Below are positions 2,585-40,651 of a stretch of DNA of 40,887 bases, in pieces. The stretch's first letter is position 1; each line of letters begins with the position of its first letter. This DNA comes from a virus, in IMG/VR virus record IMGVR_UViG_3300023254_000002, positions 1 through 40,887 of that record, one strand, 5' to 3'. Made by a program: the position numbers and the translations under genes. The notes below the pieces were generated by a model that did no database searches, was not told the DNA's origin, and worked only from the letters and a program-made list of their open reading frames with translations.

Positions 2585-3202
2585 TTATAATCCTAAAAAT
2601 AATCTTTCCAAAACTTCAATTGGATAACTGTTGACTTCGGAAAATCTTTCATCATTTGTTTTACATTTCTTGATTTCATACCCGTGTACTCTGCAATAAG
2701 CACTAGCACTTTTTCCACGATTCTTACAAGTTTGTAAGTTCCAATTTAGTCTGTGAGTTTGATTAAATTTCATAATAGTCCAGTGTTTCTCTGATTCATT
2801 GAGTTCTGTTTTTAGGTTTTCGTTAGCTGTAAGTAATAATTGATTCTTTTCCAACTCATCAGCATATAGTCTTAATGCTTCTACGTGACTAGGTAGTTTA
2901 GGTTGTTGTAATTCTTCTAACTTCTGGTTAACTTTTGCACGTACTATAGCGTCATAACGCATAGCAATTTGTTGTATACCGATTTTTGTAAGGACGTAGT
3001 AAGCGTTACTTATTGGTGTCTGTGTGTTAGTGTTTTCCACGAGCTCAAAATTGAGCTCGGAGAATTCCGCCATCCCCCCGGTTGTCAGTTTAGATATCTC
3101 ATCCCCAATATCTCTTAATACATTCTTATGCTCTTTCTCTGTCCACTCTGCTATATCCTTTGATGTGTATTGATTGTCATGATTTAATTTAATTAATTCC
3201 AT
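2585..3202 (-). CDS. Rha-type antirepressor/regulator, copy 1
   Basis: Phage regulatory protein of the Rha family (about 205 aa). The N-terminal half is a winged-helix domain (TSKDIAEWTEKEHKNVLRDI, then a wing and YVLTKIGIQQIAMRY). After a short coiled coil comes a C-terminal module shared with other genes here (WTIMKFN, ASAYCRVHGY, KKCKTNDERFSEVNSYP). I do not recognise that module as a named family; it carries three conserved cysteines. Start ATG 3202 is preceded by AAAGGTGG at good spacing; a longer GTG start at 3217 is less likely. DNA for the first half is nearly identical to the copy at 7659-8306 except for a 42-base block at 2999-3040. Rha proteins of lambdoid phages interfere with host or phage repression; the role here is inferred. 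Confidence 0.8.
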   Translation of the reverse strand: MELIKLNHDNQYTSKDIAEWTEKEHKNVLRDIGDEISKLTTGGMAEFSELNFELVENTNTQTPISNAYYVLTKIGIQQIAMRYDAIVRAKVNQKLEELQQPKLPSHVEALRLYADELEKNQLLLTANENLKTELNESEKHWTIMKFNQTHRLNWNLQTCKNRGKSASAYCRVHGYEIKKCKTNDERFSEVNSYPIEVLERLFLGL

Positions 3203-3204
3203 AT

Positions 3205-3903
3205 TTACCAAATCCACCTTTCTTTATAATCTTTTAATCCATTTGATAATTCTTTAACATCATCAAAAGTCCAACTTACATTTATATCTTTTGTTTTTAG
3301 GTCCTTAGATAATGTGTAATGGAATTCGACGTACCTATATAATAAAAGAAAGTCAATATTATTAAGACCATCTTTTGGTGATAAATGTAAGGATAAGCCG
3401 GCATTGGTGGCTAAAGAATGTTTGTATCGATATTCCGAAATAGCACAAGGGTATTTACTAATACAGTCAAAAATGATTTTATTTGTCAACCCAACTTTGT
3501 CACAATTATCTATTATTGTTTCTGTTGGTGTGAGCCCATTAGAAATGAATACTTTTTTATTTTTTAGCTTTTCATAAATTTCTATTTTGTGGGCTTCACC
3601 ACTTCCTATTTTGAAAAAATCTACGGATGAGTCATTTATTGGGAATCCATTTGTGAATAAAGTGATTCCGGTTTTCAGATCAAGAGATTTTGCATATTGC
3701 ATTAAATGTATTAATTCTTCTTTTTTTAAATGATTTTTTGCATAATAATTTACATTAAATCCAGATTCCGGATTTAATGAATTTACGTCGTAATATTGGA
3801 ATTTAACACCATAAACTTCTAAGTTGTATGCTTGGTCTATCATTTGTTTAGCTATTGTTGTACTTCCACAATGGTTAAGGCATAAATCTAAAATAACTTT
3901 CAT
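3205..3903 (-). CDS. neuB: NeuB-like N-acetylneuraminate (nonulosonate) synthase, short form
   Basis: TIM-barrel enzyme of the NeuB family, which condenses phosphoenolpyruvate with an N-acetylhexosamine (ManNAc for sialic acid) to form a nine-carbon acidic sugar. Visible motifs: NHCGS at 10-14, VKFQYYD at 33-39, FKIGSGEAHKIE at 97-108, SNGL at 121-124, FDCISKYPC at 145-153, GLSLHLSPKDG at 169-179 and FHYTL at 194-198. His173 and His195 line up with the two metal-binding histidines of NeuB. At 232 aa it is about 110 aa shorter than bacterial NeuB and lacks the C-terminal SAF (antifreeze-like) domain that normally supplies a substrate-binding arginine. ATG 3903 follows AGGAG by 6 bases and overlaps the upstream antirepressor stop (ATGA). 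The gene lies between two antirepressor-type genes in the replication operon, far from neuA and neuC. Confidence 0.82.
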   Translation of the reverse strand: MKVILDLCLNHCGSTTIAKQMIDQAYNLEVYGVKFQYYDVNSLNPESGFNVNYYAKNHLKKEELIHLMQYAKSLDLKTGITLFTNGFPINDSSVDFFKIGSGEAHKIEIYEKLKNKKVFISNGLTPTETIIDNCDKVGLTNKIIFDCISKYPCAISEYRYKHSLATNAGLSLHLSPKDGLNNIDFLLLYRYVEFHYTLSKDLKTKDINVSWTFDDVKELSNGLKDYKERWIW

Positions 3904-4535
3904 AAGATACTCCTATCTAAAAATAATTTTTCTAGCACTTCTAATGGGTAACTATTTACTTCTGAAAACCTTTCATCGTTTGTTTTACATTTCTTGATTT
4001 CATGCCCGTGCACTCTACAATAAGCAGATGCTTGCTTACCATTTCTTTTACATGTTGGCATGTCCCATTTTAACTTATAGAACTGATTGAACTTCATAAT
4101 AGTACAATGCTTCAAAGATGTATTTAATTCTGTTTTTAGGTTTTCGTTGGATTCTAGCAATTTTAATTTTTCCTCTTCAGCTGTGACTAGTGCCTTTAAG
4201 GCTTCAATGTAATTAGTTGGTTGTTGTAATGCTTTGAGTTTTTTCTCACATTCTATAAAATATAATCTAGCTTCTTTACCTTTTGGTGTTCTTTGAATCA
4301 TTGATATTTCCTTAGCCATGGAAATTATTAGGATATGGTCTGTCAAACCCTTGCCATGCCCTATTAGTCTTTTTTCACTAATAGGTGTGTAATCAATATT
4401 TTCCGCAAAACCATAATCAATCATTCTACTTATCCAGTGTGTATATTGTTCATTAATTTCTAAAAATGTATGTAATTCTCTACCAGATATAAGTTGTTCA
4501 TTTTGTGCATTTGTTGTAATTTTAATTAATTCCAT
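3900..4535 (-). CDS. AntA/AntB-type antirepressor with the shared C-terminal module
   Basis: Putative phage antirepressor (211 aa). The N-terminal domain is AntA-like: ISGRELHTFLEINEQYTHW, NIDYTPISE, GKGLTDHILIISMAKEISM and GKEARLYFIECEKKL. The C-terminal half (FNQFYKLKWDMPTCK, ASAYCRVHGHEIKKCK, ERFSEVNSYP) is the module that elsewhere in this genome follows a Rha domain, so the two halves have been shuffled. ATG 4535 is preceded by GAGGA at normal spacing; the stop overlaps the neuB start as ATGA, so the genes are coupled. Antirepressors of this type bind and inactivate repressors; no partner can be seen here. Confidence 0.83.
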   Translation of the reverse strand: MELIKITTNAQNEQLISGRELHTFLEINEQYTHWISRMIDYGFAENIDYTPISEKRLIGHGKGLTDHILIISMAKEISMIQRTPKGKEARLYFIECEKKLKALQQPTNYIEALKALVTAEEEKLKLLESNENLKTELNTSLKHCTIMKFNQFYKLKWDMPTCKRNGKQASAYCRVHGHEIKKCKTNDERFSEVNSYPLEVLEKLFLDRSIL

Positions 4536-7402: not shown

Positions 7403-7669
7403 TCACTTTCTTTCTAATATATTATCTACTTCAATTTTTGAAAAAATAACATAAGCTTCGTGACCTAAATTTTGTAATTCCAGTATTCTGTGTTTTTGTA
7501 TTTCGCTTATCCTCCCCTTAGACCTTTTGACTTCTACAAATATAATTCTGTTTTTGAGAATGATAAGTCTATCAGGTATACCAACTTCGGTATTCAGTTT
7601 CAATGTTTTACCTCTAAGTTTTTTAACTTGGAGGTTGAGGTATTTTTCGATATCCCTTTCAAGTTCCAT
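7403..7669 (-). CDS. VRR-NUC domain nuclease
   Basis: Small stand-alone VRR-NUC nuclease (88 aa) of the PD-(D/E)xK fold, which can cut branched DNA. The catalytic pattern is clear: GIPDRLIIL with the Asp, then IIFVEVKRSKGRIS containing the ExK pair, then Q and a conserved LGHEAYVI. The gene overlaps the 3' end of the Rha-type gene upstream by 11 bases and is followed closely by the SNF2-like helicase, the usual phage partner. Likely resolves replication or recombination intermediates. Confidence 0.9.
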   Translation of the reverse strand: MELERDIEKYLNLQVKKLRGKTLKLNTEVGIPDRLIILKNRIIFVEVKRSKGRISEIQKHRILELQNLGHEAYVIFSKIEVDNILERK

Positions 7670-8306
7670 TTTTTAGAAACAATTCTTCTAAAACGGTGTG
7701 GGGGTAAGAGTTAACTTCACTGAATCTTTCATCATTTGTTTTACATTTTTTAATCGCATAACCGTTAACTCTACAATACATACTAGCTCTTTTTCCATTG
7801 GATTTACACGTTTTCAAATCCCAACCTAGTTTGTAATTTGTATTGAACTTCATAATTGTCCAGTGGAGTTCTGATACGTTTAGTTCTGTTTTTAAGTTTT
7901 CCACTTTCACATCAGACAATTGTAGATTTTGTTGTAATTTTAACTTTTCGTCTTCGGCTATAACTAATGCTTTTAGGGCTTCAATGTAATTTGTTGGTAG
8001 TTTAGGTTGTTGTAATTCTTCTAACTTCTGGTTAACTTTTGCACGTACTATAGCGTCATAACGCATAGCAATTTGTTGTATACCGATTTTTGTAAGGACG
8101 TAATGTGTATTAGAAGGAAGGTTATCAGGGTTGCTATTTGAGCGAAGCTCAAAATTGAGCTCTGCGAATTCCGCCATCCCCCCGGTTGTCAGTTTAGATA
8201 TCTCATCCCCAATATCTCTTAATACATTCTTATGCTCTTTCTCTGTCCACTCTGCTATATCCTTTGATGTATATTTCTTGTCCTGATTTAATTTAATTAA
8301 TTCCAT
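7659..8306 (-). CDS. Rha-type antirepressor/regulator, copy 2
   Basis: Second full-length Rha-family gene (215 aa). Its N-terminal winged helix (TSKDIAEWTEKEHKNVLRDI) and the segment from YVLTKIGIQQIAMRY to KLEELQQPKLP are nearly identical in DNA to copy 1. Between them the wing block (8103-8144) is entirely different. The C-terminal module (WTIMKFN, RASMYCRVNGYAIKKCK, ERFSEVNSYP) is present. The leader with GAGGG upstream of ATG 8306 is shared with the truncated copy next to it. The gene sits between the VRR-NUC nuclease and DNA polymerase. Confidence 0.85.
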   Translation of the reverse strand: MELIKLNQDKKYTSKDIAEWTEKEHKNVLRDIGDEISKLTTGGMAEFAELNFELRSNSNPDNLPSNTHYVLTKIGIQQIAMRYDAIVRAKVNQKLEELQQPKLPTNYIEALKALVIAEDEKLKLQQNLQLSDVKVENLKTELNVSELHWTIMKFNTNYKLGWDLKTCKSNGKRASMYCRVNGYAIKKCKTNDERFSEVNSYPHTVLEELFLKNGT

Positions 8307-8705: not shown

Positions 8706-10607
8706 TCACTCTTCCTTCATATAATATTTTGAACTAAACCCTTCACTCCTGAGTACTAAACCTGGTGCCCATTCAATGTTTTTATTCATTATGTATTTCA
8801 TATTGTCAACTTGATTACTTACAGTCACACAACATATTTCGTCATGGATGTGCATTGCTATATCAAAACCCACATTTGATAAATTAATTAAACTTTCAGC
8901 TAAACAATCACGTGCGACCGCTTGTGTGATGTTTTCTACAAATAAACCTCCCCAGGCAGGTTTTGTTTCCCATTTTTTAGTAGTTTGGTTTACCCCTTCA
9001 TATGTTATTTCATTGTTTTCAACTTTTGCTCTAAGGTATATGAGTGGTCTTCCCGAAGGTAATGTGATAATTAGACACCCTTTGGTTTTTCTAAACTTTA
9101 GATAAAGATACTTGGTTGGTATCCCAGTTTGTAAAGTATGTTTTATACAATTTTCAACCTCTTTCCAAAATTTTACTATCCTTTTATTAGCATTTCTCCA
9201 ATAATCTACAATTACCTTAGCTTTGTCATCCTCAAAGTCAGGAGCAAAATTTTGTATAGCCCTGATACCTCCACCGTAACCACATGCCAGTACAGCGGTC
9301 TTTCCCATAGAACGTTGTTCTTTTGTTACATCTTCCAATTTAACATCAAACATTTTTGAGGCTGTGGCTTCATATATTTTACCATCACCTTCAAATACTT
9401 CCATAACCCATTTTTCATTTGCGAGCCAGGCCAAAACTCTAGCCTCTATTGCGGAAAAATCAACTATAGAAAGTACATAATCCTCTTCGGGTATAAAAAC
9501 AGTTCTTAATAATTGTGATAATTCAAAAGGTGTTTTCTCTGTGATTTTAGCTGTACCATTTTTATATGATTCTCTTATACTATCTAAGTCTTCACCCAAT
9601 TTATTTTTTGGTAAATTGTGTATTTGGACTTTTCGCCCACTCCAACGACCTGTTCGTGAAGCCCCCAAAAATTGTAAAGTATTATGAAGAGAACCATTAT
9701 ATTCTGAATTTAACATTGTAATATATTTTTTTATTGAAGTTTTACTTAACTGTTGTCTTAGATCAAGCACTCTACATACATCCTTATCCTGTGCGAACAA
9801 GACTTTCAGTGAATCGATCGTATCTTTTGTAAGGCTGTCAACTTTGAAATTTGTTCTTTCCAATATCCAAGCTTTAAGTTGTGCCACACTGTTTGGATTA
9901 GATAAGCCTGTTATGATTCTTGCTTCATCCATACATAATTCTGCATGAGAAACAGAATAGTAAATCGCTGACTCTACTAATTGCTTATCTATTTTTACAC
10001 CTCTAGCATTTATTTTTCTGTCAAGTACACATAATCTTTTTTCAAATTCAGAGGGTTCTACCCACTCCAATTTTTTATAGAGTTCATATTCGACAGCCAC
10101 GTCTTGACCACAGTATTCTTTAAAAGTATCCCACTTAATTAAATCATGTTCCGGTAAATTTCGTGTTCGCCCACCATTTATTTTAGTAGCTTTGCAAGGC
10201 TTAGAAAAATATTTTATTAGTAGTGTGCCCTCATCCATTTTTTGGTTTGGTAATTTCAATATTTTAGCTACATCTTTCAAAGACCCAGGGAGTCCAGCTC
10301 TATAGCATTGTAACATTGTACATTCCCATTCTTCATAATTAAGTTTATGTCTTAAATAAACAGATAAGCAAGTTATTTCAAAAGTAGCATTATGCGCAAT
10401 TTTTAAATAATCAGGACTTAAAATTATATTAATTATTTCTTTAGGTATTTTAGTTTTCATTAGGTCTATAATTTTTATATCACCATCATCTATTTTGTAG
10501 GCTAGTAGTAAAATTTTAAAGGATTCGTGATTAGCGTATTTCATTACTGTACAATTTTTTAAGTCCAGTTCGCAAAAAGTTTCTATGTCTAGATGTATTT
10601 TTTTCAT
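8706..10607 (-). CDS. family A DNA polymerase with 3'-5' exonuclease domain
   Basis: Replicative phage DNA polymerase of family A (633 aa). The N-terminus carries exonuclease motif I (HLDIETF, residues 4-10) and later exonuclease-type motifs (HNATFEITCL; YCGQDVAVEYELY). The polymerase half has motif A (IVDFSAIEARVLAWLA), motif B region (GKTAVLACGYGGG) and motif C (MHIHDEICC). Length fits the short family A enzymes of siphoviruses and podoviruses. The start must be at or near 10607 because motif I begins at residue 4; the gene therefore overlaps the HTH gene upstream by 77 bases, unusually long. The family A type makes protein-primed replication unlikely. Confidence 0.97.
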   Translation of the reverse strand: MKKIHLDIETFCELDLKNCTVMKYANHESFKILLLAYKIDDGDIKIIDLMKTKIPKEIINIILSPDYLKIAHNATFEITCLSVYLRHKLNYEEWECTMLQCYRAGLPGSLKDVAKILKLPNQKMDEGTLLIKYFSKPCKATKINGGRTRNLPEHDLIKWDTFKEYCGQDVAVEYELYKKLEWVEPSEFEKRLCVLDRKINARGVKIDKQLVESAIYYSVSHAELCMDEARIITGLSNPNSVAQLKAWILERTNFKVDSLTKDTIDSLKVLFAQDKDVCRVLDLRQQLSKTSIKKYITMLNSEYNGSLHNTLQFLGASRTGRWSGRKVQIHNLPKNKLGEDLDSIRESYKNGTAKITEKTPFELSQLLRTVFIPEEDYVLSIVDFSAIEARVLAWLANEKWVMEVFEGDGKIYEATASKMFDVKLEDVTKEQRSMGKTAVLACGYGGGIRAIQNFAPDFEDDKAKVIVDYWRNANKRIVKFWKEVENCIKHTLQTGIPTKYLYLKFRKTKGCLIITLPSGRPLIYLRAKVENNEITYEGVNQTTKKWETKPAWGGLFVENITQAVARDCLAESLINLSNVGFDIAMHIHDEICCVTVSNQVDNMKYIMNKNIEWAPGLVLRSEGFSSKYYMKEE

Positions 10608-11013
10608 AGAATTTTTCCTTTCTTTTTAGTACTTTTGAAACGTTTTGAGTGGTACAAAATAGAGCTATCGCCATTTCTTTTTTAGTGCATTTATCATGTT
10701 GCATCTTATCAAGTTTTATATACATTTCTGTTTTTCGCATAAAACTTTTTAAAGTTTCAGTACTAAGGAGCTTGAATTTTTTAGTTATTTCTTGCTCAGA
10801 ATAACCTTTTTTCAACCAGTATTTAATAAATATATAGTCTAGTATTGTTAAGTCTGCTATATTTTTTCTTCGAACCCGTATTGAAGTTTTAGCCAGACAA
10901 TCTATACATTCTTCAGGTATATCACAATTAAGACATTTTTTGATAGTGTCGTTATCGTCTATGTAGGAATCAAATCTATAACCTGTAAAATATTGTTTTG
11001 TTTGTTTTAACAT
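10531..11013 (-). CDS. helix-turn-helix protein with a CxxC pair, upstream of polymerase
   Basis: Protein of 160 aa with a cysteine cluster (KKCLNCDIPEECIDCLAK, residues about 25-42) that could bind zinc, followed by two helix-turn-helix-like segments (GYSEQEITKKFKLLSTETLKSF and KKEMAIALFCTTQNVSKVLKR). It looks like a sigma-like or early regulatory DNA-binding protein, but I cannot name a family. Start ATG 11013 follows AGGTGGTG by a good spacing. The end overlaps the polymerase gene by 77 bases in a different frame. The start region is tandemly duplicated upstream and abuts an omega-RNA-like element. Confidence 0.75.
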   Translation of the reverse strand: MLKQTKQYFTGYRFDSYIDDNDTIKKCLNCDIPEECIDCLAKTSIRVRRKNIADLTILDYIFIKYWLKKGYSEQEITKKFKLLSTETLKSFMRKTEMYIKLDKMQHDKCTKKEMAIALFCTTQNVSKVLKRKEKFYEKNTSRHRNFLRTGLKKLYSNEIR

Positions 11014-11070
11014 TCTAATCACCACCTGTAAAAAAGGGTTTTGTTTGTTTTAACATTCTAATCACCAGCT
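10985..11070. repeat. 43-bp tandem duplication of the HTH gene start region
   Basis: Two adjacent 43-bp units, 10985-11027 and 11028-11070, match at 39 of 43 positions. The lower unit holds the ribosome-binding site, ATG and first codons of the HTH gene. The upper unit is a near copy that would encode only a 13-codon peptide beginning MLKQTK. Each unit ends (minus strand) in TTTTAC, and the upper unit begins exactly at the base after the GTTCAC end of the IS605-like element. Confidence 0.92.
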
Positions 11071-11178
11071 GTGAACTACTCACCACTTTAGAAGTGGGAG
11101 CTTCTTGCTTCATAGAAGTTGTTACTTACCAACTGTCTCCACAAGCTTGAATTCGGGCTATCCCAGCCCTACTAATTC
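11071..11178 (-). ncRNA. orphan IS200/IS605 right-end / TnpB omega-RNA-like element
   Basis: On the minus strand this region ends in AAGTGGTGAGTAGTTCAC, preceded by GAAGCAAGAAGCTCCCACTT and, further up, GTGGAGAC. From memory this matches the conserved 3' end of IS200/IS605 family elements, where the TnpB guide RNA (omega RNA) scaffold lies. Predicted stems: GGGCT/AGCCC, GTTG/CAAC and CCCACTT/AAGTGG. In TnpB systems the guide is the sequence directly after this end; here it starts AGCTGGTGATTAGAATG. No tnpB or tnpA gene is present in the window, so this is an orphan, a MITE-like remnant or a domesticated RNA. It lies in the leader of the HTH-polymerase transcript. Confidence 0.55.
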
Positions 11179-11193
11179 CATCATTTTTTTTAC

Positions 11194-11238
11194 AAATGTA
11201 ATATTATAAGCTTGGTTATCGCTAATAATATTACATTT
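11194..11238. other. 13-bp stem, 19-base loop inverted repeat
   Basis: Perfect arms AAATGTAATATTA and TAATATTACATTT enclose a 19-base loop. No T-run follows on either strand, so it is not a typical terminator. It lies just upstream of the omega-RNA-like element and overlaps a possible -10 box, so it could be an operator, a leader RNA hairpin or the left end of the transposon remnant. Confidence 0.7.
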
Positions 11239-11257
11239 AACAGTTAAAAATAAACAA
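11228..11257 (-). promoter_or_regulatory. possible promoter for the HTH-polymerase transcript
   Basis: On the minus strand TTGTTT and TAATAT are separated by 18 bases, directly after the terminator of the upstream gene. The -35 match is partial. Transcription from here would place the omega-RNA-like element in the 5' leader. Confidence 0.35.
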
Positions 11258-11293
11258 AAGGGTAAACAATTTATGCTTATCCTTTTGTTTATT
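11249..11293 (-). terminator. stem-loop terminator after the DUF2815 gene
   Basis: A 13-bp perfect stem (AATAAACAAAAGG with CCTTTTGTTTATT) around a 19-base loop starts 15 bases after the stop of the ssDNA-binding protein gene and is followed on the minus strand by ATTTTTAAC. It probably ends the transcript coming from the packaging and sugar genes. Confidence 0.65.
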
Positions 11294-11307: not shown

Positions 11308-11883
11308 CTACATCTCTTCGGTGTCGGTTTCTGTCTCAACTACGTCAAAATCTTCTTCTGCCGTAGCACCACCCCCTAATCTTTCACCATCTGCTAACTT
11401 TTGTATATTTCCGAGTCCAACAGCTATACCTTTTGATTTACCACTAAATGCATAAAATTCTAAAGAAACCCTACCATAGCAACCTGAATATAATGCATCT
11501 TGATCTATAATTCTATTAAGCGAAGAATCTACAACACCTGGTTGTCTAACTGCATTCGCATTTAAAAACCATTTGTTTTTATACAATTCTTCTCCGGCTT
11601 TTTCCTCATCTGTGTCACCACACCTAAGCGGTAATTTTAAATCTTTTGGTATTATTCCTTTTTTATTTGCTAATTTAGTTTTTCCGGTTTCAATTGCGGC
11701 TGTTACAGCCTTCTCAATAGATGCTATAGTTTGCTTGTCTGTTTTATCAATAATTATTTGACATGAATATTTTGGTTTTAATCCAGCGGTTATGTCCTCT
11801 TCTGATTGTGGTCTAGTTTCCCACACATAAACATAACTTAATCTCACTTTGCCTGTTACAACTCTTGTAATTGATTTTCCCAT
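11308..11883 (-). CDS. DUF2815 family single-stranded DNA-binding protein
   Basis: Protein of 191 aa matching the phage DUF2815 family, an OB-fold ssDNA-binding group comparable to T7 gp2.5. Features: GKVRLSYVYVWETRP near the start, YSCQIIIDKTDKQT, an AIETGKTKLANKKG segment, FLNANAVRQPGVVD, and YSGCYGRVSLEFYAF. The last 18 residues are strongly acidic (EEDFDVVETETDTEEM), as in ssDNA-binding proteins that recruit polymerase and helicase through a C-terminal tail. AAAGGGG precedes the ATG. It lies at the head of the replication region. Confidence 0.88.
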   Translation of the reverse strand: MGKSITRVVTGKVRLSYVYVWETRPQSEEDITAGLKPKYSCQIIIDKTDKQTIASIEKAVTAAIETGKTKLANKKGIIPKDLKLPLRCGDTDEEKAGEELYKNKWFLNANAVRQPGVVDSSLNRIIDQDALYSGCYGRVSLEFYAFSGKSKGIAVGLGNIQKLADGERLGGGATAEEDFDVVETETDTEEM

Positions 11884-17958: not shown

Positions 17959-18161
17959 GACCGTTTCCTTCTTGTGTAAAACCCATTTGAATCTTTGTAT
18001 TCTTCGAGCCTATCATTTTCTCTGTTTTTTTCGAGATTAGCTAGTCTTAAATTAATATTTGCTAAGAAGTTACGTATAACATATAAAAGATAAAATATAC
18101 CAACCCAGTTAAGTACCAGGGCTATTACGATAAATATTATTACTAAATTAATTTTTACCAC
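17955..18161 (-). CDS. small single-pass membrane protein, about 68 aa
   Basis: N-terminal hydrophobic segment (LVIIFIVIALVLNWVGIFYL) followed by a charged coiled-coil-like tail ending in RRKRS, so one membrane segment with a basic cytoplasmic tail is likely. No ATG is available: GTG 18161 lies within the Shine-Dalgarno GGGGTGG, and an in-frame ATT follows at about 5 bases. Overlaps the end of neuA by 14 bases. The shape recalls Rz/i-spanin or holin-accessory proteins but there is no direct evidence. Confidence 0.65.
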   Translation of the reverse strand: MVKINLVIIFIVIALVLNWVGIFYLLYVIRNFLANINLRLANLEKNRENDRLEEYKDSNGFYTRRKRS

Positions 18162-18756
18162 CCCAATCTAATAATAGTTCAGCCATTTTCCAATCATTTT
18201 CATCATTTATATCAATACATCTATGAAAAGGTAATTCATATTTTAGGTGTTCTTTCGGTAATAAAATACCTTTTCTTATGTTTTCTACAGAAGTAAGTAT
18301 TATAGAACCATCGCGTTGAAAAATATTTTTTGCGCCTAATGTGTCTTCATTTTTGATAAAACTGTATTTACCACTAACAACTGACAACCCATCTTTATGC
18401 AGTTTAATAACACTGTTAATATCTTCTTCATCAATAAGAGGATTCGTTGGTTGTAGCAACATTACGGCTTCAAATGTGTAAGTATTCAAATAATCTAATG
18501 CGTGGTTCACTATGTCACATATAGATGTTTCATCTGAATCTAAATGTTCAGGTCTTTTTATGCGCTTTGTAGTGTATAGGTACAGGTTTAATATTCTTTG
18601 TGAACTTGATGATAATGCCGTTACATCTAGGTTACTCCAATAAGCTATTTCAGCGACAGCTTCTGGTAAAGTCCGCTCTAGCTTATTCATTTTCTTTATG
18701 TTTTTTTTGGGGCATCTTAAGCTTGTCTCTTTTGCAATTATTAAACCCAGAATCAT
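18148..18756 (-). CDS. neuA: NeuA-like CMP-N-acylneuraminate cytidylyltransferase
   Basis: Sugar-activating enzyme of the NeuA/KdsB family (202 aa), which couples CTP and a nonulosonic acid to give a CMP-sugar. IIAKETSLRCPKKN (residues 6-19) replaces the usual ARGGSKRLPGKN loop. Then RPEHLDSDETSICDIVNHAL (69-88), MLLQPTNPLIDEEDI (99-113), QRDGSIIL (147-154, the NGAIY equivalent), LPFHRCIDINDENDW (175-189) and MAELLL. This order and spacing match CMP-sialic acid synthetase; the P-loop is altered, so activity needs proof. ATG 18756 follows GAGGGGGG; GTG 18759 is the alternative. It follows the portal stop immediately, an unusual home for neuA, and is far from neuB and neuC. Confidence 0.85.
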   Translation of the reverse strand: MILGLIIAKETSLRCPKKNIKKMNKLERTLPEAVAEIAYWSNLDVTALSSSSQRILNLYLYTTKRIKRPEHLDSDETSICDIVNHALDYLNTYTFEAVMLLQPTNPLIDEEDINSVIKLHKDGLSVVSGKYSFIKNEDTLGAKNIFQRDGSIILTSVENIRKGILLPKEHLKYELPFHRCIDINDENDWKMAELLLDWGGKN

Positions 18757-18759
18757 CAC

Positions 18760-27060: not shown

Positions 27061-27804
27061 ATGGTGGAAAATTTAGTGATTATTAAAAATAATGAAGTGT
27101 ATGTTGATACTGATGTGTTAGCAAAAAAATTAAATAGACAACACAAGGTAATTTATAATTTGGTAAATGTATACAAAGAAGAGTTGCAAATGTTGGGGGT
27201 TCTTCACTTTGAAAATGTTCCAAATTCTGGAGAAAAAGGCGGAGGAACTAAAAAGATATATTCATTAAACAAAAAACAATACATTTTTCTAATTACAAAT
27301 ATGAGAACTAAAGCAAGCGAATTGGATACAGTTATGAAGGCAAAGTTGGAAATAGCAGATCAATTTGTTAATATGGAAAATTGGATACTTAGCCAAAAAA
27401 CCATGAAAGCAAATGAAGAATACAAATTAAGCAGGGGTAAAAGTATTCTAGGTAGAAAACAAGAAACCGACACAATTAAAGAATTTATAGAGTATGCAAA
27501 ATCACAAGGAAGTCAATCAGCGGATAAATACTATATGATTTTTAGTAAAATGGAAAATTCAGCGTTTTTCATTTTACTGGAAAAGTTTAAAAATGTAAGA
27601 GAAATATTAAGTATAGATCAATTGTCTAAGATAATAATAGCTGACATGATAGTTAAACAGGCAATCGTAGAAGGCATGCAACAAAAATTATTTTATAAAG
27701 ATATTTTCCAGTTAGCAAAAAAAAGAGTGGTCGAATTAAGTAATAGTTTGGGCTTTAAAGAAATCCTACCTGGTGTGAAATTCACACAAATTGAAGCAAA
27801 ATAG
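27061..27804 (+). CDS. Rha-type regulator with a distinct C-terminal domain
   Basis: 247-aa regulator on the opposite strand to its neighbours. The N-terminal half is a Rha-like winged helix: VYVDTDVLAKKLNRQHKVIY, a wing GVLHFENVPNSGEKGGG, then IYSLNKKQYIFLITNMRTK. Residues about 110-247 (KSILGRKQETDTIKEFIEYAK through LPGVKFTQIEAK) are not the cysteine module of the other copies and are unfamiliar to me. It is alone in its transcript, with its own promoter and a shared bidirectional terminator. Its stand-alone position opposite the late genes suggests a regulatory switch. Confidence 0.75.
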   Translation: MVENLVIIKNNEVYVDTDVLAKKLNRQHKVIYNLVNVYKEELQMLGVLHFENVPNSGEKGGGTKKIYSLNKKQYIFLITNMRTKASELDTVMKAKLEIADQFVNMENWILSQKTMKANEEYKLSRGKSILGRKQETDTIKEFIEYAKSQGSQSADKYYMIFSKMENSAFFILLEKFKNVREILSIDQLSKIIIADMIVKQAIVEGMQQKLFYKDIFQLAKKRVVELSNSLGFKEILPGVKFTQIEAK

Positions 27805-38568: not shown

Positions 38569-39555
38569 ATGAAAATTTGTATATTCGTAGGCTCTAGGGC
38601 TAATTATGGCAGGCTTTATTCAATAATAAAATTATTAAAAAGTACACATGATATAATCCTAATTGGTGGGTGTACACTAAATAATATAAAAAGTCAAGTG
38701 GAATTTGAAATAAATTATTGGGTAGAAGCCGATTTGTATAATGATACTTTTGATAATCGTAATTTAACGATGTCCTTAATAGCAATACAATGCGGTAGTA
38801 TACTAAAAAATGAGAAACCCGATTTGTGCATTTGCCATGGTGATAGATTTGAAGTATTAGGCTTTGCACAAGCCTCAAGTTCGCAAGAGATTAAATTGAT
38901 GCATTTAGAAGCTGGTGAAAAAAGTGGTATGTATGATGATAAAATAAGATATGCTATATCTAGCTTATCTGATATTTTATTAGCGCCAACTATTAGATCA
39001 AAAAACAATTTAAAATTCTTTACAAAAAAACTTATATATAATGTAGGCAGTCCAATTGTGGATTATATATATTCCCTTAAATTGGAAAAGTCTTCACATG
39101 AAAAAGTGTTGGTGTTATTCAACCCAACAAATTTAAAAGATTTAGAAAAACTAATTAATATAATTACCAAGCTTGATAAAAAAATAGTATGGGTTAATCC
39201 TAATATTGACCCAGGTCACAAAGAAATTACTAAAAGGATAAAAACTTTAGAGAATATTGAATTTATAAAAAATGTTAAATTACCAGATTTTATAAATTTA
39301 TTGAATGATTGTAGGTTTGCCATAGGGAATTCAAGTGCTGGATTAAAAGAGGCAAGTGTATTAGGTGTACCTTTTATAATGGTTGGTACAAGACAAAAAG
39401 ATAGGGAGTTTGGTTTAAATGTAATTAAAAGTAATTGTCTAGACCTAGTTAGCTTACCTCTCCGTTATCATTATAATGGCTTTATTGGTAATGGTGATAC
39501 GGCTAACAGAGTTTTAGAAATAATAAACGAAAAGGTGGTAGTAAAAAATGATTAA
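38569..39555 (+). CDS. neuC: NeuC-like UDP-N-acetylglucosamine 2-epimerase (hydrolysing)
   Basis: 328-aa enzyme of the NeuC/WecB family. The hydrolysing members convert UDP-GlcNAc (or related) to ManNAc (or related) and UDP, the first step of nonulosonic acid synthesis. Visible motifs: GSRANYGRL (start), ICHGDRFEVLGFAQA, LMHLEAGEKSGMYDDKIRYA, GSPIVDYIYSL, NSSAGLKEASVLGVPFIMVG and RQKDREFG. These cover both Rossmann domains and the UDP-binding site. It is shorter than bacterial NeuC (about 370-390 aa). ATG 38569 follows a weak GGATG. The end overlaps the amidase start by 8 bases. It is transcribed on the plus strand from its own promoter, apart from neuB and neuA. Confidence 0.88.
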   Translation: MKICIFVGSRANYGRLYSIIKLLKSTHDIILIGGCTLNNIKSQVEFEINYWVEADLYNDTFDNRNLTMSLIAIQCGSILKNEKPDLCICHGDRFEVLGFAQASSSQEIKLMHLEAGEKSGMYDDKIRYAISSLSDILLAPTIRSKNNLKFFTKKLIYNVGSPIVDYIYSLKLEKSSHEKVLVLFNPTNLKDLEKLINIITKLDKKIVWVNPNIDPGHKEITKRIKTLENIEFIKNVKLPDFINLLNDCRFAIGNSSAGLKEASVLGVPFIMVGTRQKDREFGLNVIKSNCLDLVSLPLRYHYNGFIGNGDTANRVLEIINEKVVVKND

Positions 39556-40117: not shown

Positions 40118-40651
40118 TTATCCATTTCTGTAGTTTGGAGTCTTATCGTTGAGAAGTAGCGATAAGATTTCTTTTTGTAAAATACGTATGTCGTTTTCTA
40201 ATCTTGTTATTTTCTTTATTGCGTTTCCATATTTACCCATTACAGAAGCTTCTCGTCCAGGAAGAATTCGACCGTGAACCCGTTTTACTGAAGCTATTTG
40301 GTTTTCGAGAAGTTTCTTTTCCTTTTGATGGTTTTTAATGAAATTTTGGACGAATATGTATCTTGTATGCGCACTATATCTAGATGACAATTGTAAAAGT
40401 CCCGCCATTGTAAGTGTAAAATATGCGTTTGATCTCAGGTCTCTTGAGTTAGCTAGAATTAAGGTGTTTTCTTGGAATAAAAATAATAAGCCAGGATTAA
40501 TGCACGCTTCCTCGAGTTTTGAAATTTCGTCTCTTATGTCTTTCATTACATTCCAATGATTCTTTTCTGTCATTTTGGCTATGTCGCGTGATGTAATCTG
40601 ACTGTAGTTTGTTAATTTCTGTAAACTTTTCTCGTCAATCGTTTTTTTCAA
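40118..40651 (-). CDS. Rha-type antirepressor/regulator, divergent copy
   Basis: 177-aa Rha-like protein with a winged helix (TSRDIAKMTEKNHWNVMKDI, wing, YFTLTMAGLLQLSSRYSAHT) and a basic C-terminal coiled coil (KKITRLENDIRILQKEILSL). Lacks the cysteine module. Start is TTG 40651 behind GGAAATGG; no ATG fits. It overlaps the RHH gene by 17 bases in a different frame. Together they look like an early regulatory operon. Confidence 0.78.
   Translation of the reverse strand: MKKTIDEKSLQKLTNYSQITSRDIAKMTEKNHWNVMKDIRDEISKLEEACINPGLLFLFQENTLILANSRDLRSNAYFTLTMAGLLQLSSRYSAHTRYIFVQNFIKNHQKEKKLLENQIASVKRVHGRILPGREASVMGKYGNAIKKITRLENDIRILQKEILSLLLNDKTPNYRNG

Follow-up and report, generated by a model that had tools for sequence, protein, structure and literature searches.

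The PATE of Halanaerobium hydrogeniformans, about 271 nt long, consists of a left-end remnant, the last part of tnpB and a full right end, and has no tnpA (PMC7290912). In the ISDra2 and SisTnpB7 systems (PMC8612924, PMC10097598, PMC11043419), which encode the nuclease, the guide starts directly after UUCAC; the target-adjacent motif (TAM) of SisTnpB7 is TTTAA (PMC11043419), and the ISDra2 omega-RNA has a GAA/UUC pseudoknot beside the guide (PMC10097598). The TldR repressors of phages use a phage-borne TnpB-type guide RNA, and the nuclease-dead protein is encoded beside it (PMC13418256).

The DNA analysed here (the window) is the whole virus record IMGVR_UViG_3300023254_000002, 40,887 nt. The same omega-RNA core, the end GTTCAC and the left motif TTTTAAC are found in the window, in the IS of YS40_Isch (MK257744) and its second copy, in TMA and in IMGVR_UViG_3300044959_000348 (G001). 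The YS40_Isch IS has full tnpA and tnpB, unlike the window, and in the TMA and G001 copies the tnpA promoter is fused straight to the scaffold, a left-end sequence that the window does not have. PATEs reportedly encode omega-RNAs (Meers 2023, Altae-Tran 2021, Wiegand 2024), and this was not used as evidence. The window element is likened here to the H. hydrogeniformans PATE, being shorter (173 nt), with no recognised typical left-end TnpA hairpin and with what appears to be an internal tnpB hairpin kept instead. Its guide position directly follows UUCAC as in ISDra2 and SisTnpB7, its family shares the TTTAA TAM with SisTnpB7, and a pairing beside its guide resembles the ISDra2 pseudoknot. It also resembles the TldR loci in being phage-borne; however, neither a nuclease nor a nuclease-dead relative is encoded in the window.

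We consider it probable that the locus is a tnpB-less IS200/IS605 derivative with an omega-RNA in a gene leader, whose guide matches itself through a 43-bp duplication, and for which no regulatory role is needed. This reading is built on scaffold homology, a conserved fold, the absence of tnpB and the tandem duplication. The features of the locus are as follows.

11308 to 11883, minus strand: upstream gene for a Gp2.5-like/DUF2815 ssDNA-binding protein (phrog_112, E 1.4e-55)
11249 to 11293, minus strand: terminator-like inverted repeat (20-nt arms, 90% complementary) where the Gp2.5-like gene ends, with a T-rich tract after it
11244 to 11250, minus strand: TTTTTAA, the putative left flank/TAM at the insertion point; same motif at the proven TMA left boundary
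11071 to 11243, minus strand: putative tnpB-less IS200/IS605 derivative, 173 nt, C...TTCAC; left boundary by analogy, right boundary well supported
11194 to 11238, minus strand: palindrome with 18-nt arms (94% complementary) and a 9-nt loop, GATAACCAA; probable tnpB hairpin remnant (Asn-Gln codons)
11071 to 11173, minus strand: omega-RNA scaffold core (tnpB end and right end), five structural elements, from cmsearch, covariation and blastn
11028 to 11070, minus strand: copy A of the 43-bp tandem repeat, at the omega-RNA guide position; holds a ribosome-binding site, an ATG and a 13-codon ORF
10985 to 11027, minus strand: copy B of the 43-bp tandem repeat, the supposed target; includes the HTH gene's ribosome-binding site and first codons, with TTTAC before the copy
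10531 to 11013, minus strand: gene for an HTH-like protein, family unassigned; overlaps the start of the DNA polymerase gene
8706 to 10607, minus strand: family A DNA polymerase (phrog_17, E 1.1e-124)

The element occupies the leader that separates the Gp2.5-like gene from the HTH-polymerase operon, the ATG of the HTH gene being at 11013 on the minus strand. The Gp2.5-like and polymerase genes are 700 nt apart in the window, whereas they lie close together in most of 82 measurable loci, and the scaffold is absent from 84 phage loci with related polymerases (E up to 1). The collections searched contain no close relative of the window phage. The HTH-like gene has no match in PHROGs, no significant match in Pfam and no relative among the phages and IMG/VR. 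No sigma-70-like promoter was called in the leader, and the consensus scanner made no call at the terminator-like repeat (11249..11293).

Parts of a nonulosonic (sialic-type) acid pathway are spread over the phage genome: a NeuB-family gene (3205-3903, minus strand), a cytidylyltransferase-like gene (CTP_transf_3; 18148-18759, minus strand) and a UDP-GlcNAc 2-epimerase gene (38569-39555, plus strand). Three Rha-domain genes (2585-3217, 7659-8306, 40118-40651 (-)), a fourth Rha-like/antirepressor gene (27061-27804 (+)) and an AntA antirepressor (3900-4535) represent an unusual multiplication of phage regulatory genes.

A sequence-only reading of this DNA had described an orphan omega-RNA-like element with no tnpB in the window. 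All the sequences that it quoted are present on the minus strand, and both statements are borne out by the homology, the fold and the gene content described below. It had also proposed a covariance-model search. No omega-RNA model of Rfam matches the window at gathering or permissive thresholds; Rfam also misses the bona fide relatives of the scaffold, so this null result is uninformative and is not counted against omega-RNA identity. A model built from the relatives finds a single place in the window, 11173-11071 (-), at 93.3 bits (E 4e-23); it was trained on seven sequences including the window itself, and independent support comes from the covariation and from the match by blastn.

By blastn against the phage collection only Thermus phages matched (74.5% identity to YS40_Isch/TMA, E 2e-9), and the scaffold core shares 75-78% identity with the YS40_Isch IS605 end and with copies lacking tnpB in other phages. 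The YS40_Isch match is the 3' end of tnpB in an intact tnpA-tnpB IS605 element; the TMA match lies in a stretch without tnpB nearby. Pattern scans detected two tnpB-less copies in G001, a 170-kb contig, and single copies in further viral contigs and in a Bathyarchaeota MAG. The similarity starts at about TTAGTAGGG and stops at TTCAC in all relatives found by blastn or pattern scan.

The RNAalifold consensus of the seven sequences has 33 pairs, with 96.9% of cells paired against at most 45% in slid versions of the fold, and two-sided changes were observed at 6 pairs versus 2.4 expected in shuffles. Several of these are private to the window, among them a C-G to U-A change at both 31/70 and 43/53 (alignment columns) and one from C-G to A-U at 41/61. 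The foldable scaffold ends in GUUCAC, and the GAAUU/AGUUC pairing adjoins the guide directly, in the same position as the ISDra2 pseudoknot. The tnpB C-terminal frame is open in YS40_Isch and meets a TAG after five codons in the window, which together with the pairing-preserving changes indicates that the fold persisted through the loss of coding, at least for some time. In the alignment to YS40_Isch the scaffold overlaps the tnpB 3' end and ends at the right cleavage site, with the guide directly 3'. Judged by its sequence and fold, 11173-11071 (-) is a genuine TnpB omega-RNA scaffold, for which RNA production and TnpB binding are predicted.

The TnpB domains PF07282 and PF01385 are absent from the whole record, the record contains no TldR gene, and the tnpA and/or tnpB required of an autonomous IS200/IS605 element were not found in it. 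The locus is best read as a non-autonomous, PATE-like tnpB-less IS200/IS605 derivative that would carry an omega-RNA; the transposon scar offered earlier as one option agrees with this in that a tnpB-less IS200/IS605 right end is supported. For the host or the parental IS, the pattern scan of the genome collection gave only the Bathyarchaeota MAG, and plasmids gave none.

This MAG (G002, e.g. L151-L170) has about 20 dispersed scaffold copies of the same type without an adjoining TnpB C-terminal domain, all sharing about 140 nt of sequence upstream and differing in their 3' flanks, and only about five other copies adjoin a tnpB; the former are a multi-copy tnpB-less omega-RNA family in an archaeon. 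G001 (e.g. L022-L026) has at least five copies of another omega-RNA-like right end, of the GAAGCTGCCACTTCTTGAAGTGGTAGTAGTTCACT type, at least two of which adjoin tnpB fragments. A second, larger TnpB-like protein is present in YS40-type Thermus phages (MK257744, 121220-121411; AP011617, 112845-113030), in open frames of 518 and 494 aa, away from any IS end seen here.

A precise empty site is known for the TMA relative of the element. YS40 has TTTTAA/TCAGAATG where TMA has TTTTAA/CTTATG...GTTCAC/TCAGAATG (slashes mark the junctions), which gives TTTAA as the target motif and a guide that begins right after TTCAC. This site rules out TTAC, the IS608-type site named earlier as the target-adjacent motif, for the scaffold family. 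In TMA, the element consists of the YS40_Isch IS left end (TTGAAA...TATAAT, promoter-like, before tnpA) fused to the tnpB 3' end, and the copies in TMA and G001 and the second YS40_Isch copy all have a left end joined to the tnpB 3' end with no tnpB between.

In the window, the left motif TTTTTAA (11250-11244) is followed by C, and by analogy the left boundary would be at 11243, giving the 173-nt element. Compared with the two ends of a PATE, the right end is clear and the left end is marked by the TTTTTAA/C motif only. Since no canonical left end with a typical TnpA-binding hairpin is recognised in the window, the left boundary is drawn by analogy and the element is at most putatively mobile. 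The scaffold reaches about 11173 and the element probably extends to 11243, past the limit of 11178 first proposed. The predicted empty site would be ...TTTATTTTTAA/AGCTGGTGATTAG....

The left part of the element is occupied by the palindrome 11194-11238, whose apical loop C-GATAACCAA-G is found at a single place in the record. Searching nine viral records for CGAWAAYCAAG gave seven sites. Four lie 5' of a tnpB-less omega-RNA (the window; the YS40_Isch second copy, 40070; G008, 56868; G009, 24468), one is inside the G010 tnpB, coding Ser-Glu-Asn-Gln, and the remaining two, homologous to each other, have no relation to omega-RNAs. The stems of the four omega-RNA-linked hairpins differ and the loop (11211-11221 in the window) is conserved among these tnpB-less elements. 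The TMA and G001 copies lack the hairpin, which is therefore not required by all tnpB-less elements.

Against synonymous codon shuffles, the hairpin within tnpB scored 0/500 in YS40_Isch, 0/400 in both Geobacillus phage E3 and Enterococcus phage EFP01 (each gene's most extreme position) and 7/400 in Enterocloster phage CB473P3; in 10 of 14 tnpB genes no hairpin was stronger than synonymous codon choice at p<0.02. The tnpB hairpin is centred on Asn-Gln/His codons in the RuvC Glu-motif region in YS40_Isch (L001), E3 (L202), EFP01 (L196) and CB473P3 (L205). An unrestricted local alignment of the window left part with the YS40_Isch second copy was not significant (190/600 shuffles), and the hairpin argument draws only on the exact loop motif and its position, being partly post hoc in that the motif was noticed before the search. 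The window element probably combines a hairpin from inside tnpB with the 3' end of that gene and the right end. At least three distinct lineages have kept the hairpin, given that the YS40_Isch and G008 copies are closely related, and this suggests a cis function. We tentatively consider, as possible rather than likely, that tnpB-less phage omega-RNAs of this type are a maintained class with a 5' C-GAWAAYCAA-G hairpin, derived from the structured Ser-Glu-Asn-Gln codons of tnpB and acting in cis, and RNAs working with TnpB in trans.

The same data bear on the idea that the locus is nothing but a scar, the decayed remains of an IS605 right end that is truncated at its 5' side, lacks any RNA function and was retained by chance, which we regard as unlikely. 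The missing promoter call, the lack of a recognisable left end and the lost tnpB frame agree with it, and a single phage copy needs no function; the differences from the relatives nevertheless preserve pairing (columns 31/70, 43/53 and 41/61), although these changes could predate tnpB loss, and the loop 11211-11221 is conserved among tnpB-less elements.

The minus-strand right end GAAGCAAGAAGCTCCC...AAGTGGTGAGTAGTTCAC stops at 11071. The guide-position sequence that follows, AGCTGGTGATTAGAATGTTA (11070-11051, minus strand), has one mismatch to the supposed target AGGTGGTGATTAGAATGTTA (11027-11008, minus strand), with 0 such matches expected by chance; the target covers the HTH gene's ribosome-binding site and its ATG (11013), and TTTAC precedes the target. 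The 19/20 match reported earlier is real in these respects, but it is part of a tandem duplication of the leader and the HTH gene start, 11070-11028 and 11027-10985, identical at 39/43 positions (mismatches at 3, 34, 35 and 37), and the match between copies A and B extends beyond 20 bases and beyond any guide length. The guide-target match is a by-product of this duplication and gives no evidence of targeting. A second guide copy nearby, with up to 2 mismatches, was found at none of the 21 other scaffold 3' ends tested locally, which come from the tnpB-less elements found here and the archaeal MAG, so self-targeting is no property of this class.

The unit ends share a 10-nt direct repeat, TTTTACAGGT (11033 and 10990), the usual slippage substrate, so simple slippage is possible. 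TTTTTAA joined to AGCTGGTG gives TTTTTAAAGCTGGTG, with two differences only from TTTTTACAGGTGGTG of copy B, and this near-identity makes insertion of the element into the first unit of a pre-existing repeat a natural reading of the sequence. Under the preferred explanation, an IS200/IS605 derivative in the leader keeps a foldable omega-RNA scaffold, and the phage sequence after the scaffold automatically becomes the guide. Insertion into a repeat with TTTTACAGGT ends, or slippage next to it, would place the guide flank within the 43-bp tandem duplication, with a near-identical second copy 43 bp on. The omega-RNA, if made by read-through, could serve a TnpB supplied in trans, for which copy B, with TTTAC and the mismatch at guide position 3, would be a poor target.

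Alternatively, the element itself may have made the duplication by aberrant IS605 excision or insertion, with TTTTTTAC as a surrogate right cleavage site replacing TTCAC and 43 bp of flank carried along. In its favour, the exact borders of copy A are TTCAC and TTTAC, two motifs with a single base difference, and copy B has TTTAC on both sides; we consider it unlikely all the same, since the 10-nt repeat permits ordinary slippage and the other scaffold ends examined offered no parallel.

A role in translation, in which a 13-residue leader peptide of copy A (MLKQTKPFFTGGD) couples translation to the HTH gene, is distinctly unlikely. The copy A ORF (11056-11015, minus strand) does have its own ribosome-binding site, ATG and in-frame stop, the stop being one base before the HTH ATG, but duplicating a gene start yields such an ORF automatically and no relatives of the HTH gene were found.

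For targeting of copy B, published TnpB data are relevant. In SisTnpB7, altering the -1 A ranked second in strength of effect, and where the TAM was weak any mismatch caused a dramatic drop in editing (PMC11043419); in ISDra2 TnpB, TAM-proximal double mismatches abolish cutting (PMC10097598). Copy B has TTTAC rather than TTTAA and the guide mismatches it at position 3, so that poor or no cutting is predicted, and a seed match next to the family TAM, as a TldR or TnpB regulator would have, was not found. The proposal that a phage-domesticated guide RNA lets a TnpB or TldR supplied in trans silence or cut the HTH-polymerase operon, as the sequence-only reading had suggested, is highly improbable: the near-match does have the correct strand, a T-rich TAM-like motif on its 5' side and a position over the ribosome-binding site, a TldR seed may need no more than 6 nt and gRNAs acting in trans may come from tldR loci that lack a functional gene (PMC13418256), but the tandem duplication fully explains the match, TTTAC is not the family TAM, the position-3 mismatch falls inside the TldR seed, the record has neither tnpB nor tldR, and the other tested scaffold ends show no second guide copy. 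The element is probably not a switch for the HTH gene.

As a tnpB-less IS605 derivative with an omega-RNA scaffold, the element is of an ordinary kind, and it adds to the phage examples of such elements. An attractive guide-target story can arise without targeting, when tandem duplication of the omega-RNA flank yields a self-match. The locus also points to a tnpB-embedded hairpin kept by several reduced elements, which deserves follow-up. If a maintained class of tnpB-less phage omega-RNAs does exist, the hairpin would be a stabiliser or a TnpB- or TnpA-binding site, at the RNA or DNA level, and the TnpB acting in trans would come from co-resident elements or hosts.
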